Shown here: in pieces, positions 18,849 through 32,281 of the stretch | How positions within the stretch are numbered: the first letter of the stretch is position 1 | Layout: each line of letters starts with the position of its first letter | From: Bacteroidaceae bacterium | Lineage (GTDB): Bacteria > Bacteroidota > Bacteroidia > Bacteroidales > Bacteroidaceae | NCBI GenBank assembly: GCA_017552435.1 | Contig: JAFZPZ010000084.1 | Coordinates: forward strand, 1 to 35,256 | Direction: 5' to 3' | DNA length: 35,256 bases | Program-made: the position numbers and the translations under genes | The notes under the pieces: generated by a model | The model's input: only the letters and a program-made list of their open reading frames with translations | Database searches by the model: none | What the model was told of the DNA's origin: nothing

Positions 18849-19334
18849 ATGAGCAAAAACTTCCTGATACTGGCCTACAAAAAGTTGCAGCAGAGGTTGC
18901 AACGTGGCCTTTCATATTCGGAGGAGGATGCCCTGAATGATGCCTTTTGCCTGCTTTGGGGTGGAGAATACAATCCATCGACTAAAGAAGAAGGAGAGAA
19001 ACTGCTCTACCAGACATTGCGCCGCAGACAGATTAGCTTTTGGCGAAGCCAGAAACGACACCCCCAGACATCGCTTACGGGGGTTCGGATAGCCCAGCCA
19101 CCGCCCGACACCAATGCCGAAGATACATACCGGCAAATTTGGGAACTGATAAAGACACAACTGACACCACTGCAGCAAGACATACTTACACGACATGACA
19201 TTAACGACGAGACATACAGCGAAATAGCCGACAGGCTAGGCATGCAAGAAGCAGCCGTCAGGATGCAACTGAGCAGAGCGAGAAAAAAGATTAGAGAAAC
19301 GTATAGAAAGTTAAGAGTGAAGAATGAAGAGTGA
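18849..19334 (+). CDS. ECF-type RNA polymerase sigma factor
   Basis: A 161-residue sigma-70 family protein. Residues about 1-70 form a region 2-like part (SEEDALNDAFCLLW, LYQTLRRRQISFWR). Residues about 100-152 are a clear region 4 helix-turn-helix (LTPLQQDILTRHDI, DETYSEIADRLGMQEAAVRM, QLSRARKKIRE). It should direct RNA polymerase to a dedicated promoter set, controlled by the membrane protein encoded next. The two genes overlap by 11 bases (ATGAAGAGTGA), typical of sigma/anti-sigma pairs. The last codons and stop are formed by the AT-rich repeat at 19311-19340. Confidence 0.9.
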   Translation: MSKNFLILAYKKLQQRLQRGLSYSEEDALNDAFCLLWGGEYNPSTKEEGEKLLYQTLRRRQISFWRSQKRHPQTSLTGVRIAQPPPDTNAEDTYRQIWELIKTQLTPLQQDILTRHDINDETYSEIADRLGMQEAAVRMQLSRARKKIRETYRKLRVKNEE

Positions 19335-26602: not shown

Positions 26603-28117
26603 ATGAAAAAGATTCTTACTTCTATTATTGCACTGGCTCTTGCGACGGTTGCACACGCAGCGACCATCAACGTAACGGTGTTCAGTACCCGCTATCAGAC
26701 GATAACTGGCTTTGGCGCTGCCTGCTGCGATGGTGCGATGTGTCCGTTCGGCACCGATACCCAGCCTGTGAAGCTGCTCTACGGACCGCAGTCGAAAATA
26801 GGTCTGAACATTATGAGAATGGAAATCTCGCCCAACTTCAAGGGCGACATCAATGCCAGCGATATTGGTTGGGATACACCCTACGACTGGCAGGGTTCCG
26901 TTCCATCGGCAAAGATTGTCAAGCAGCGCGGCGGCATCGTCTTCGGAACACCCTGGTCGCCCCCGGGGGAATACAAGACCAACGGAACGGCTGCAGGGGG
27001 CAATAGTGAGGAACAGGGATATCAGCGTGGCGAACTGCGCGAAGACTGCTACGAAAAGTTCTTCCCCTGGCTTAACACTTTCCTGAAGTATATGAAGTCG
27101 AAGGGAGTAGCCGTAGATGCCGTGTCCATCCAGAACGAACCCGACTGGTGGGTGAACTACTCCGGCTGTCTCTATACACCCGAACAGCAACTCAAACTTG
27201 TCAAGAACTATGCCCAAATGCTAGATCGCGAGACATACAAGGGGGTACGCCTCATCAGTGCCGAACCGTTGGGATTCGACCCCAAGTATTCCGACGCGTT
27301 GATGAAAAGCGCCCCGGCACGCAAACAGATTGACATCATTGCGGGTCACCTCTATGGCCATCCGCCCTTGGGGAACATGAAGGAGGCAGCCACCCTCGCC
27401 TCCAAGTATGGCAAGGAAGTGTGGATGACCGAGCACTCGGTGACAGACAATATCGACCACCTGCCCACCTGGCATGAACAGCTCATCTTTGCCGAGGAAC
27501 TGAATGAATGTATGTTGGCTGGCTGCACCGGCTACATCTACTGGTACATGCGTGCTCATTGGGCCTTCGTCGGTACGGGCGAAGCCAAATACAATCCCGG
27601 CAACACAAAGAACAAGCTGTTGCCTCGCGCCTACGTCATGTCCCACTTCTCCAAGCATGTCACTGGTTCCACCCGTCTCGGCGTCAAATCCAATGTCACC
27701 ACCGGTACCAATTCCTACTTCGAGACATCCGCATACATCAAGGGAGATTCGCTCATCGTAATGGCTATCGATACCACAAAGAACGCCTTCGACCTGAACC
27801 TTAGACTGCCCTTCAAGGTGAAAAGCGGCACCCATCTGCTGTCCACATCTAACGAGTCACTCTGCCAGGAAACACCCATTGCTATTGATGAACCAGTACA
27901 GGAGCTGACCGTCTATATGCCCGAACGCAGCCTGAACACCTACATCTTCATGATCGAGCGGGGAACAGGCATCCAGGAAGTGCCGCAAAACACAAAACGC
28001 AATTCTTCGGGCCGCAGGTATTTCGATTTGCAGGGACGACAGCTGAATACCCCTCAAGGTCTGTGTGTCGAACAAAACGCAGACGGTTCCTCCAGAAAAG
28101 TATATATCGACAAATAA
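26603..28117 (+). CDS. GH30-family glycosidase, glucuronoxylanase-like
   Basis: 504 residues: signal peptide 1-19 (...TVAHA), GH30 catalytic barrel with FGTPWSPPGEYK (114-125), acid/base Glu179 in SIQNEPDW and nucleophile Glu277 in WMTEHS, then a C-terminal beta-sandwich and a tail ending GSSRKVYIDK. GYIYWYMRAHWAF resembles the WWYIRRSYG segment of subfamily GH30_8 glucuronoxylanases, including the arginine that binds the glucuronic acid side group, so an endo-xylanase acting on decorated xylan is the best guess; the subfamily needs a tree. It directly follows the GH27 gene, and the pair could strip and cut hemicellulose. No terminator is obvious downstream. Confidence 0.93.
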   Translation: MKKILTSIIALALATVAHAATINVTVFSTRYQTITGFGAACCDGAMCPFGTDTQPVKLLYGPQSKIGLNIMRMEISPNFKGDINASDIGWDTPYDWQGSVPSAKIVKQRGGIVFGTPWSPPGEYKTNGTAAGGNSEEQGYQRGELREDCYEKFFPWLNTFLKYMKSKGVAVDAVSIQNEPDWWVNYSGCLYTPEQQLKLVKNYAQMLDRETYKGVRLISAEPLGFDPKYSDALMKSAPARKQIDIIAGHLYGHPPLGNMKEAATLASKYGKEVWMTEHSVTDNIDHLPTWHEQLIFAEELNECMLAGCTGYIYWYMRAHWAFVGTGEAKYNPGNTKNKLLPRAYVMSHFSKHVTGSTRLGVKSNVTTGTNSYFETSAYIKGDSLIVMAIDTTKNAFDLNLRLPFKVKSGTHLLSTSNESLCQETPIAIDEPVQELTVYMPERSLNTYIFMIERGTGIQEVPQNTKRNSSGRRYFDLQGRQLNTPQGLCVEQNADGSSRKVYIDK

Positions 28118-28201: not shown

Positions 28202-28263
28202 TAGAGTTAGTGGGTAACTATAATAGAGTTAGTGGGTAACTGTATTAGAGTTAGTGGGTAACT
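28202..28263. repeat. Three tandem copies of an 18-bp palindromic unit, 22-bp period
   Basis: TAGAGTTAGTGGGTAACT is repeated without mismatch at 28202, 28224 and 28246, separated by the 4-base spacers ATAA and GTAT. Each unit holds the inverted repeat AGTTA-GTGGG-TAACT. It lies 84 bases after the GH30 stop and 161 bases before the next promoter. It may be an operator array, an RNA hairpin array or a small satellite. From 28118 to 28201 I see nothing else. Confidence 0.8.
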
Positions 28264-28401: not shown

Positions 28402-28431
28402 TTGCTGTATCGGAAATAATTCGTATCTTTG
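28402..28431 (+). promoter_or_regulatory. Bacteroidetes promoter upstream of structured RNA and BspA-like gene
   Basis: TTG at 28402-28404, 19 bases, TATCTTTG at 28424-28431. Start site near 28437, 269 bases before ATG 28706. On the minus strand a -7-like TACCTTTGCA (box at 28337-28344) has no -33 and no downstream gene. Confidence 0.7.
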
Positions 28432-28436
28432 TACCG

Positions 28437-28659
28437 CATTCATGCAAAATTGTACATGCCTATGACATAAACAAAGGGATTTAGACATACAGAAGAAGCG
28501 TCCGCTTAGATTCTTGTTCTCCTAATTCGCCAAAATTAAAGAACTGTCAAGAGTAAAAGTGAGTCGCTCACGCTTCGGCGTGGGCTTTTACTCGTATATG
28601 ACAGTATGGCGTTTGGCGATGCCTGGAGAACGTAGACGATAAAGTCCACGTTTTTTTTT
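28437..28659 (+). ncRNA. Candidate structured RNA (6S-like long hairpin or cis-acting leader)
   Basis: Between the promoter and a hairpin plus T9 tract there is no ORF but a long imperfect hairpin: GTTCTCC (28516-28522)/GGAGAAC (28625-28631), CGCC (28528-28531)/GGCG (28615-28618), CTGTCA (28544-28549)/TGACAG (28599-28604), GAGTAAAAG (28551-28559)/CTTTTACTC (28585-28593), and CTCACGC-TTCG-GCGTGGG at the tip with a stable UUCG loop. Internal loops are nearly symmetric (5/6 and 12/10 bases). The ~223-nt size and rod shape recall 6S RNA or the Bacteroidales-1 motif, but I cannot confirm either. It could equally be a regulatory leader of the BspA-like gene. Confidence 0.5.
28629..28659 (+). terminator. 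Intrinsic terminator or attenuator 46 bases before the BspA-like gene
   Basis: Stem AACGT-A-GAC (28629-28637) with GTC-C-ACGTT (28644-28652), one A/C mismatch and a 6-base loop, followed by nine T (28651-28659). Its left arm shares three bases with the long hairpin arm GGAGAAC. No other promoter is seen between it and ATG 28706. Confidence 0.6.
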
Positions 28660-28705
28660 GTTCTATACAATTAATTCAAACTAAACAACTCTAATATTAA
28701 TCATT

Positions 28706-31700
28706 ATGAAGAAAATTTTTCTTTTTGCGCTAATGGCGCTTGTGTCCGCCTTTCAGGGTTGGGCTTTCGACTTTGAAGTCGATGGTATCTACTACACCAT
28801 CACGGGTTCAGGCACAGTCAGTGTTGTTAAAGGCACATACGACTACGACGGTGATGTTACCATTCCCAAAACTGTCAGCAACGGGGTGGAGACATTCAAT
28901 GTGACAGGCATTGGTGAAGGTGCTTTCAAGTCTTGTGGTGAATTGACGAGTGTTACATTGCCCGAAGGATTAACCTCAATCGGAAACGAAGCTTTCTATC
29001 AGTCCGGCATTAAGACTGTCAGCCTTCCATCCACTCTGAGCAGTATGGGTACTAGCGCTTTCCGCGAGTGCAGGAACTTGACAGGAGTTGTGTTACCTGA
29101 TGCTTTGAAGGAGATTAAGGAGTATGCTTTTTATCAGTGTTCTAATTTGAAGACCATGACTTTAGGACAAAACACCACGATGATTGAAACTAATGCTTTT
29201 CGGCAAACTGGCATTACAAATGTTGTCATTCCTAAATCCGTAAAGACAATTAGCCATGATAGCTTCTGCGAGAATTCCGCCATGAAGTCACTTGTCATCA
29301 ATAATGCAGCCGTATTCATTGACTATGATGCTTTCTGGGATTGCACTGGTCTGGAAACAGTAGACCTTGGAAATGCCGTGACAGGATTTGGTTCTAATGA
29401 ATATTATGGTTATGGTACTTTCCGAGGATGCACAGCATTGACAAAAATAGTAATTCCTGAATCTGTTACCCAATTAAGTTATACATTTGTTAAATGTTCG
29501 CGTTTATATGACGTGACATTACCAAATACTCTTATAACAATTGGAAATAGTTCTTTCGCAAGTTGTGCAATAAAGGAACTAACGATTCCCTCGTCTGTAA
29601 CATCGATTGGGAAGTCGGCATTTGCGGGGTGTCCTCTAACGTCAATTAATTTGCCTTCTTCACTAAATACAATTGAGTACAATGCTTTTGCAAGCACAGC
29701 CTTAACAGAAGTTGTTATTCCCTCTTCAGTAACCCTAATAAACTCACAGGCTTTTTTCGATTGCAAAAGCCTAAGAAAAGTTAAGATTGAGAATGCACCC
29801 GTTAAACTTATAGATGCTTTCAGGAGTTGTCCTTCACTTATGGAGGTTGATTTGGGTAATTCGGTAATAGAAATCGTTAGTCAGTGTTTTAGACATTGTA
29901 CAAAACTAACGACTATCACAATTCCCAATACGGTTAAAGCTATCGGGGAATATGCATTCGGGGAATGTTCTTTATTAGAGAAGGTAATACTTCCAAATGC
30001 GTTAACATCAATCCAAAGAGATGCGTTTTATAATTGCACTAATTTAAAGAATATCGTATTTCCAAATACTTTGCAAAGCATAGGAGTTAATGCTTTTATG
30101 AATTGTTATCAATTGCAAGATTTTGCATTGCCAACCTCGCTTAATGTTATTGGAAGTTCTGCTTTTCAGAATTGTGCATCTTTAACAAGCATTCTTATTC
30201 CTGAATTTGTAACCAGTATAGGTGGTTCTGCTTTCAATGGCTGTACGAGTTTGAAGTCAGTAGTGTTTGATAATTCAGTGTTAGCTATTCAAGGAGCCAC
30301 ATTCTCAGGTTGTACAAATCTTAAGAATGTTGAATTGGGTAAAGTCACGTCGATAGCAGAACAGGCATTTGCAAATTGTACAAAGTTAGAAAGCATTGTG
30401 ATTCCAAATAGTGTAGAATCATTAGATAGAGTGTTCCTGGGATGCTCTGGCTTGAAGAGTGTTATCATAGGTACAGGCGTAAAGTCAATTGGTGGCTATG
30501 ACTATTACAAACAAGGACTTTTCAGTGACTGCACGAAACTAACTTATGTTGAGATAAAGAGCAACGTACTGACATCGGTGGGCGACGACTGTTTTTACAA
30601 CTGCCGTAGCCTGAAGAAGATTGAATTGCCTGCATCTGTAACTTCTATCGCAAAGAATGTTTTTAGTGGTTGCAGTGTTCTCTCGCATATCTATATGAAT
30701 GCCACAACTCCTCCAACGATTCAAGCTAATACCTTCTCAGACTATGAAACGCCGACATTACATGTGCCTTCTTCAGCAAAGACATCTTACACAAAAGCTG
30801 ATAACTGGAAGAATTTTACGAACGTGATTGCCATTGGTTCTGAGCCCAAGGCTACAGCTGAAGAGATTGCCGCACTGGATGCTTTGCTGACGGAAGCTCA
30901 AGCTCTCTACAATGGTTCTGTAGAAGGCTCCGAACCTGGCAACTACCGCCCTGGAGCTAAAGCTGCTTTGAAAGCTGTTATCGATGAGGTGGAAGCCCGC
31001 TTCAATGACAATATGTTGGCCGAAGATGTGGAGGACTGCATGGAACTGCTCAACACTGCCATCAAGTCGTTCAAGAACAAGCAGGTGAAGAACGACATTC
31101 AGACAAACAACACACTTGCCTTTGCCGAAGCCCTGAAGGCTGCCACAGGTTCTGAGTTCCGTCTGCCTATAGAAATGAACAATACAGACGAAATAACTGG
31201 TGTTCAGTTCGACCTCTATCTGCCCGAAGGAATGCAGCTGAGCCAGGACGAATATGGCGACTACAACATAGAGTTGTCTGAACGCACAACAGCACGTCGC
31301 CACTCTGTAGCATCGCGCGTGATGCCAGACGGTGCCCTGCGTGTAGTAGTTTCTTCTGCGCAGAATGCCACCTTCAGCGGCAACAGCGGCACACTGCTCA
31401 CTCTGGTACTGTTCCCCGCAAGTACATTGGAGGCCGGTGACTATGACGTCGAGCTGAAGAATGTCATCCTGACCGATCCGCAGGCTAACCGATATGCAGC
31501 TCCCGACATGAAGAGCGTCATTACCGTCTCTACCTATACGTTGGGCGATGTGAACAACGACGGATTCATCGACGTAGCCGACCTTGCTGGTGTGGTACGT
31601 TTCATCCTGGAGAATGCCGATGCAACCCTCGTCTTCAATGCTGCCGATATGGATGGTAACGGCGTTGTCGAAATTAACGACTATGCAGCTCTTGTGAACG

Positions 31701-32281
31701 TAATCCTGGCTCAGGATGCTCCACAGAGTTCATCTCTGCGAAAGGCCAATGCCTTAAGGAATACGGTAATCGGACTTTCCGATCTTTGCCTGAACAATAG
31801 TGGCGAGGGTGAGTTGATGGTTCGTCTTGACATTAACGATATGCGCTACACAGGTTTGCAATTCGACCTCAGCTTACCTGACGGCATCGAACTGATGGAC
31901 GAAGGAGCCGAGGCTATAAGCCGCCAGCACGGAGCATGGGCCCAGAAGCGTGCAGACGGAACATACCGTGTAGTCTGCTCATCGATGGTAAATGATGAAC
32001 TTCGCGAAGGCGATGTGCTGCGCTTACAGGTAAAGGTTACAGGAGAACTGAATGGAACCCTTGACGTCGAGGCCAGCAATGTGGTGCTTTCTGATGTTAA
32101 TGCAGTAAGACACGAAGCTGCTTCTGCAAAGGCTACCCTGAATACCGATGATGCAACTTCTATAAGCGAATTGAAGAGCAATGAATCTGTCAATGTTATA
32201 TTTAACCTCGCAGGTCAGCGCTTGAACAAGATGCAAAGGGGCATCAACATCGTGAATGGAAAGAAGATTGTTGCTAAATAA
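28706..32281 (+). CDS. BspA-type leucine-rich repeat surface protein with cohesin-like and dockerin-like domains
   Basis: 1191 residues. Signal peptide 1-20, then some two dozen BspA-type (LRR_5) repeats of about 23 residues (about 45-700; pattern '.SIG..AF..C..L..V.LP..L'), a helical FIVAR-like segment (about 712-790), a cohesin-like beta domain (about 796-940, EITGVQFDLYLPEGM), a type I dockerin-like pair of calcium loops (about 945-1002, GDVNNDGFIDVADLAGVVRF and ADMDGNGVVEINDYAALVNV), a second cohesin-like domain (about 1015-1148) and a tail IFNLAGQRL...GINIVNGKKIVAK. Likely cell-surface adhesion or binding. Roughly 29100-30530 is much richer in A+T (30-35% GC in two 60-base samples) than the flanks. 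The gene follows a long structured leader; the next gene is 11 bases away. Confidence 0.93.
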   Translation: MKKIFLFALMALVSAFQGWAFDFEVDGIYYTITGSGTVSVVKGTYDYDGDVTIPKTVSNGVETFNVTGIGEGAFKSCGELTSVTLPEGLTSIGNEAFYQSGIKTVSLPSTLSSMGTSAFRECRNLTGVVLPDALKEIKEYAFYQCSNLKTMTLGQNTTMIETNAFRQTGITNVVIPKSVKTISHDSFCENSAMKSLVINNAAVFIDYDAFWDCTGLETVDLGNAVTGFGSNEYYGYGTFRGCTALTKIVIPESVTQLSYTFVKCSRLYDVTLPNTLITIGNSSFASCAIKELTIPSSVTSIGKSAFAGCPLTSINLPSSLNTIEYNAFASTALTEVVIPSSVTLINSQAFFDCKSLRKVKIENAPVKLIDAFRSCPSLMEVDLGNSVIEIVSQCFRHCTKLTTITIPNTVKAIGEYAFGECSLLEKVILPNALTSIQRDAFYNCTNLKNIVFPNTLQSIGVNAFMNCYQLQDFALPTSLNVIGSSAFQNCASLTSILIPEFVTSIGGSAFNGCTSLKSVVFDNSVLAIQGATFSGCTNLKNVELGKVTSIAEQAFANCTKLESIVIPNSVESLDRVFLGCSGLKSVIIGTGVKSIGGYDYYKQGLFSDCTKLTYVEIKSNVLTSVGDDCFYNCRSLKKIELPASVTSIAKNVFSGCSVLSHIYMNATTPPTIQANTFSDYETPTLHVPSSAKTSYTKADNWKNFTNVIAIGSEPKATAEEIAALDALLTEAQALYNGSVEGSEPGNYRPGAKAALKAVIDEVEARFNDNMLAEDVEDCMELLNTAIKSFKNKQVKNDIQTNNTLAFAEALKAATGSEFRLPIEMNNTDEITGVQFDLYLPEGMQLSQDEYGDYNIELSERTTARRHSVASRVMPDGALRVVVSSAQNATFSGNSGTLLTLVLFPASTLEAGDYDVELKNVILTDPQANRYAAPDMKSVITVSTYTLGDVNNDGFIDVADLAGVVRFILENADATLVFNAADMDGNGVVEINDYAALVNVILAQDAPQSSSLRKANALRNTVIGLSDLCLNNSGEGELMVRLDINDMRYTGLQFDLSLPDGIELMDEGAEAISRQHGAWAQKRADGTYRVVCSSMVNDELREGDVLRLQVKVTGELNGTLDVEASNVVLSDVNAVRHEAASAKATLNTDDATSISELKSNESVNVIFNLAGQRLNKMQRGINIVNGKKIVAK

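Follow-up and report, generated by a model that had tools for sequence, protein, structure and literature searches.

A multicopy, covarying RNA family that probably serves as a cis-acting 5' leader, mostly of genes for exported proteins, in Bacteroidota

In the window, the 35,256-nucleotide stretch of DNA analysed here (contig C110 of the 3.5-Mb draft genome of a Bacteroidaceae bacterium), a promoter, a long hairpin and a terminator-like hairpin follow one another just before the gene for a 1191-residue protein. The question raised by this segment, positions 28402 to 28659, is whether it encodes an RNA in its own right, possibly of the 6S type, or the leader of that gene, possibly an attenuating one, since the original prediction, made from the sequence of the window, had put forward both. 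The reading that we prefer, with a probability of about 0.6, is that of a cis-acting 5' leader RNA family that would act as an expression switch, through attenuation in the genus of the window and perhaps through control of translation elsewhere.

The locus and the predicted fold of its RNA

The promoter agreed with the rule for Bacteroidetes (TTTG/TTG-N19-TAnnTTTG), as had been claimed, and the transcript would probably start near 28437 (Table 1). No ORF of at least 100 aa in the ORF list covered the stretch, which had been described as free of ORFs, and no tRNA was found in it. Approximately 340 nt and a promoter separated the end of the upstream ORF from the conserved element, which, as judged from the sequence, comprises positions 28457 to 28659 and is wider than the rod first noticed (28516 to 28631). 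The protein encoded downstream rendered Pfam matches to LRR_5 (E 4.9e-171) and Dockerin_1 (E 1.7e-7).

All five arm pairs anticipated for the rod were present, together with the UUCG tip, and so was the terminator-like hairpin, with one A.C mismatch between its arms and a T9 run behind it. The GTCC strand inside this hairpin is the one that forms a pseudoknot in other members of the family (see below). When positions 28402 to 28700 were folded, none of 200 shuffled sequences folded as well (z = -3.5). The reverse strand folded equally well (z = -4.0), so folding alone proves little and does not give the strand, which is assigned by placement and covariation.

Table 1. Features of the locus (positions in the window)
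Feature	Position	Strand	Basis
End of upstream ORF	28117		ORF list
Promoter: TTG 28402-28404, 19-nt spacer, TATCTTTG 28424-28431	28402-28431	+	read from sequence
Conserved 5' box TGCCTATGACATAAACAAAGGGATTTAGACAT	28457-28488	+	alignment of seven close own-genome copies
Hairpin A (AAGC-GTCC-GCTT)	28496-28507	+	
P0, alternative to hairpin A: AAGCGT with ACGTTT	28496-28501/28648-28653	+	
Switch strand TCTTGT; partner, terminator 5' arm (ACG.AGA, 28630-28636) or CAAGA (28548-28552)	28512-28517	+	fold and pair counts
Structured core: P1, P2 (possible K1/K2 kissing loops), P3, P4, tip	28517-28630	+	covariation
P1	28517-28522/28625-28630	+	sequence and fold
P2	28528-28533/28613-28618	+	sequence and fold
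P3	28543-28548/28600-28605	+	sequence and fold
P4	28551-28558/28586-28593	+	sequence and fold
Tip helix with UUCG loop	28566-28573/28578-28585	+	sequence and fold
Terminator-like hairpin ACGTAGAC/GTCCACGT plus T9 (arms 28630-28637/28644-28651; T9 28651-28659)	28630-28659	+	sequence, fold energies
Putative controlled gene: 1191-aa protein, signal-peptide-like start, BspA-type leucine-rich repeats, dockerin match	28706-32281	+	ORF list, Pfam

Family size, covariation and known RNA families

A DNA search of the same genome yielded six further full copies (73 to 83% identity), on contigs C11, C115, C125, C41, C97 and C93. The seven close copies could be aligned from a TGCC to the T run with a mean column identity of 81%. 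In P3, where the window has ACTGTC/GACAGT, the other close copies differed and yet stayed largely complementary, and RNAalifold found two-sided changes in 17 of the 58 pairs predicted for the seven. A covariance model built from these copies (R1) matched in 102 of 139 genomes of the genus and, at E 0.01, in at least 99 of the 295 genomes of an order sample. A second model (R2), built from 78 more diverse matches, found members at E 1e-4 in at least 72 of 295 genomes of a class sample and in at least 22 of 198 genomes sampled across the phylum (15 from the same class, 6 from other classes and the own genome itself); E-values of the models are rough, owing to a short calibration, and in samples of more than 40 genomes scoring was limited to the 8 to 17 best candidates of each genome, so that these counts are lower bounds. 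With R2, the own genome contained 14 members at E <1e-6, seven of them close (the window included). It also gave three weaker matches, with E-values of up to 0.01, two of them opposite copies already known. Twelve genomes picked because they had matches carried 5 to 32 members each.

Record titles, available for 80 of at least 119 stretches, were nearly all from Bacteroidota, including Alistipes, Odoribacter, Tannerella, Rikenella and Prevotella disiens. A metagenome-assembled genome (MAG) titled Heliobacteriaceae, which may be mislabelled, contained a weak member of 45 bits, and two stretches came from untitled bacteria. Among cultured carriers is Alistipes muris DSM 112343, with a member in L233. 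Identical elements linked members of the genus to MAGs titled Prevotellaceae or Bacteroidaceae (L204, L232 and L220), two of them from sheep rumen. The match at L126:2650-2855 (the same DNA as L220:2069-2274) scored 35.7 bits and may represent a remote subtype of the leader family. Four class-level members (L315, L318, L324 and L326) showed a different 5' arrangement, and some of them precede genes that, by eye, resemble those for TonB-dependent receptors or a sigma factor. Two own-genome members (L010 on C11 and L013 on C41) are followed by an identical gene start that runs to the contig end; assemblies thus seem to be interrupted where genes that follow the element are duplicated.

For the analysis of covariation, 153 model matches were reduced to 137 non-redundant members by removal of 16, of which 5 were identical duplicates and 11 were truncated, weak or on the opposite strand. 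Among 80 loci found by a sequence pattern, 75 had a model match and five did not (L192, L209, L212, L224 and L227); the pattern fixed hairpin A plus ATTCTTG, and conservation at these sites is therefore by construction in that half of the set. In a structure-free alignment of the 137 members, the six strongest covarying column pairs all fell in P1, P2 and P3, and four of the six showed all four Watson-Crick types. Below them the ranking mixed real pairs with columns that do not pair (for example, 152-159, with 12% standard pairs), as expected from shared ancestry. Over 77 diverse members, 80.9% of the cells of 50 pairs of the window structure were standard, compared with 72.3% in shuffled and 38 to 53% in slid controls. 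Two-sided changes occurred in 34 of the 50 pairs (25.8 in shuffles) and in 378 cells (153 in shuffles). The alignment of relatives, proposed at the outset as a check, thus revealed helices that covary.

The helices differed in their degree of pairing, which was 99% for the tip, 96% (95.9%) for P0, 89% for P2, 86% for P4, 76% for K2, 62% for K1, 60% for P3 and 59% for P1. The low values of P1 and P3, the most length-variable helices, are probably due to misalignment of distant members in a sequence-based alignment. The tip helix holds a conserved U-G pair. For its part, P0, the lowest helix and the lower part of the putative antiterminator, showed no two-sided change in the 77 members. P2 may correspond to a loop-loop kiss between two hairpins, K1 and K2. 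Among the 94 members with clean columns, 94% had its 6-nt strands fully paired, and the supporting stems of K1 and K2 were only moderately better than permuted ones in a fixed-column test, in which K2 was not better than permuted when Watson-Crick pairs alone were counted. That test replaced a per-sequence search for 6-nt kissing loops, which was dropped because it picked the wrong loops in many members.

No Rfam covariance model, 6S and Bacteroidales-1 among them, matched the window at gathering score, and none of the five matches obtained there up to E 10 was to a 6S family. Riboswitch models gave no match in the window, in 12 order-level loci or in 20 class-level loci, and all that Rfam found in the 12 order-level loci was three tRNAs. 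A covarying multicopy family without an Rfam match strongly supports the proposal of a new structured RNA, and that the stretch belongs to a real RNA family is, on the sequence comparisons, close to certain. The suggestion of a 6S-type RNA fared differently. The own genome has a match to Bacteroidales-1 (RF01693), which we take to be 6S-like, of 133 bits on C93, and its only match to 6S-Flavo (RF01685), a sub-threshold one of 26.5 bits, lies at the same place. The element shares with these RNAs a length of about 200 nt, a rod-like shape and occurrence in Bacteroidales; unlike 6S RNA and Bacteroidales-1, which have one or few copies and no downstream gene class, it has 14 members, is tied to downstream genes and is placed as a leader. 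Given the 6S-like RNA elsewhere and the lack of Rfam matches in the window and loci, assignment to 6S or to another Rfam family was rejected.

Riboswitches of the c-di-GMP/GEMM type occur in many copies per genome, in the leaders of exported or surface genes, with a terminator-like expression platform. The element resembles them in being multicopy, in preceding exported or surface genes and in its terminator-like platform, and differs in its long rod, its conserved tip helix and the absence of an Rfam match in 33 stretches or loci. In classical trp-type attenuators, leader strands pair alternatively with terminator arms. The same alternation can be drawn for the element, which, unlike those attenuators, is found at many loci per genome and mostly before surface or lipoprotein genes. 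Flavo-1 (RF01705) has been described as a candidate structured RNA widespread in Flavobacteriaceae, whose matches fall on both strands of transcribed regions and in many cases outside such regions (PMC9723704); the placement of the element, in contrast with that account, is fixed, and Flavo-1 matched neither the window nor the 20 class-level loci. The GUCCY-hairpin, a Bacteroidetes motif in a list of 2010, is marked there as doubtful as an RNA and has no Rfam entry (PMC2864571, Table 1). Its name implies a GUCCY hairpin, similar to the GUCC(C) strand of the element, and it could overlap with the leader family. We found no description of such a leader family in the open-access papers searched, although it may be an unnamed entry in the supplements of a published motif list.

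Placement before genes for exported proteins

Among members with sufficient flanking DNA, a same-strand ATG ORF of at least 100 codons began within 250 nt downstream in 97 of 113, at a median distance of 53 nt, whereas a mirror control, with the same rule applied upstream on the other strand, gave an ORF in 25 of 130. The distance to the ATG was tightly distributed, with a middle half of 45 to 67 nt. The longest ATG frame was taken in each case, so some starts are misplaced. By a crude rule of our own, used in place of a trained predictor and based on a signal peptide or a lipobox, 85 of the 97 downstream ORFs looked exported, compared with 3 of the 25 mirror ORFs. An earlier count that admitted shorter ORFs gave 92 of 118 as exported-looking, compared with 212 of 797 other ORFs. 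The Pfam matches of 105 downstream proteins belonged to unrelated exported families (LRR_5, 26; Big_2, 8; dockerin, 6; T9SS tail, 4; BACON, 3). In the own genome, 8 of the 14 members precede exported-looking genes and 3 precede others (C115, C63 and C92), an assignment made partly by eye; two are cut by contig ends and one (C26) has no ORF in range. The crude export rule flagged 12 of the 20 class-level loci. For five members from termite-gut MAGs (L172, L179, L181, L191 and L249), no ORF of sufficient length was found within 250 nt, and in several of them AACTAAGAGTTA-type repeats follow.

Of 136 members, 66 had the promoter box TAnnTTTG in the 60 nt before them, compared with 3.2% in mononucleotide shuffles. 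Between element and ATG it occurred in only 3 of 98 gaps, those of members with an ATG 20 to 130 nt on, of which up to 75 nt each were scanned. Since the box is often found before the element and rarely after it, transcription of the downstream gene probably passes through the element, which has the position of an attenuator, between promoter and gene. The claim that the segment is the leader of the 1191-residue surface protein thus gains strong support from a covarying family located at a fixed distance before genes mostly for exported proteins, and from the sequence data we consider it very probable that the family element is a cis-acting 5' leader.

A putative switch and its alternatives

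In the window, each arm of the terminator has a second possible partner among the 5' strands: ACG.AGA can pair with TCTTGT, and ACGTTT with AAGCGT. Folding gave -69.3 kcal/mol for the full rod and -65.0 when the terminator was imposed on this RNA, and a difference as small as 4.3 kcal/mol would, in terms of the energy model, permit a switch. A further possible partner of TCTTGT is CAAGA, which is subsequently taken up into P4, and these pairs were 93 to 99% standard over the 137 members, partly by construction; those of the terminator, the mismatch position aside, were 66 to 84% standard. The leader would then set how often RNA polymerase or the ribosome reaches the downstream gene. With the rod complete, AAGCGT and TCTTGT would pair with the two terminator arms and the gene would be on; with TCTTGT held elsewhere, the terminator would form and the gene would be off.

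In 41 of 132 members, hardly any of which belong to the close group, a complementary GGAC lies some 30 nt beyond the GUCC strand, compared with a mean of 4.5 and a maximum of 11 in 200 shuffle controls; this family-level count was preferred to dinucleotide shuffles of single members, which were weak. The outer pair was standard in 34 of the 41 (A-U in 6, C-G in 26, G-C in 1 and G-U in 1) and not in the remaining 7. A second helix around it, which completes an H-type pseudoknot, scored at least 11 in 68% of cases, compared with 33% of shuffled flanks, and was absent in 6 of the 41. L216 is an example of the pseudoknot subtype. Three divergent own-genome members show the pairing by eye, and the window itself has no good downstream partner for its GUCC strand. 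In the members with a partner, formation of the GUCC/GGAC helix close to the start codon could influence either termination or translation. The attenuating role originally suggested is therefore plausible for the shared bases of rod and terminator and their similar energies, and unproven in that 41 of 132 members form a pseudoknot from the same strand, which makes a single attenuation mechanism for all members doubtful. For the genus of the window, the model leads us to favor transcription attenuation by slightly better than even odds.

The same leader might instead act after transcription, on translation start, mRNA stability or the steering of mRNAs for exported proteins, its U run being a structural loop and no terminator. 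The pseudoknot, which covaries and ends shortly before the start codon, the tight spacing to the ATG and a placement tied to export rather than to one pathway all speak for such a role, but the close group of the window lacks the pseudoknot partner and has a terminator-like hairpin with T9, and we regard this reading as rather unlikely. The arrangement of promoter, structure and terminator in one unit would also suit a small RNA in its own right, whether 6S-like or base-pairing, with its end at the T run and the gene as no more than a neighbor. The same-strand ORFs behind 97 of 113 members against 25 of 130 in the mirror control, the scarcity of the promoter box between element and ATG (3 of 98 gaps), and the 6S-like RNA elsewhere in a genome where this element has no Rfam match render it improbable.

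A mobile DNA element or recombination site (MITE or attC-like), with the palindrome used as DNA, would account for the many copies, for close copies that share the element but not always its flanks, for tandem copies such as those at L144:6001 and 7383, for a reverse strand that folds as well and for contigs that often end near copies. Against it, orientation and spacing to the gene are constant, where placement independent of gene orientation, or in cassette arrays, would be expected; promoters lie at a set distance before the element; the tip keeps its U-G pair; and pairing has been kept through old sequence divergence, all of which leaves this origin very improbable. An ordinary terminator of the upstream gene with chance pairing, for which the convincing T-run hairpin could be cited, is hardly credible, since about 340 nt and a promoter lie between position 28117 and the conserved element, and family-wide covariation and placement already contradict it.

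Beyond a leader that switches expression, the data would accommodate a larger and more tentative proposal, to which we give somewhat less than even odds: a large and so far undescribed class of regulatory RNA in Bacteroidota, in which a leader with kissing loops and a pseudoknot would allow one cell-wide signal to tune a share of the exported and surface proteins, and in some subtypes of which the pseudoknot would take the place of the terminator. Candidates for this signal would be a second messenger, an RNA-binding protein or the capacity for export. Bacteroidota contact their hosts and neighbors through surface lipoproteins, adhesins and secreted enzymes, and a leader before genes mostly for exported proteins across the phylum would be a shared regulatory layer.

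Segment 28380-28431, which contains the promoter, was 94% identical in the own-genome DNA search to C103:33060-33111, which sits directly before another member of the family (C103:33119-33329), as if promoters and leaders had been shuffled. That member is very divergent and precedes a lipoprotein gene. Upstream of the promoter, by about 140 bases, three tandem copies of a repeat of about 21 bases (GAGTTAGTGGGTAACT plus spacer) occupy positions 28202 to 28263. A 22-nt part of the 5' box, searched with up to three mismatches, was found at eight sites in the genome, namely six of the seven close copies and two sites on C103, and its reversed control at none. At L016:18018-18175 and 19138-19291, also on C103, a second type of RNA combines the same 5' box with a different body and a terminator of its own; each copy stands behind a small unit of two genes that, we presume, resembles a toxin-antitoxin pair.
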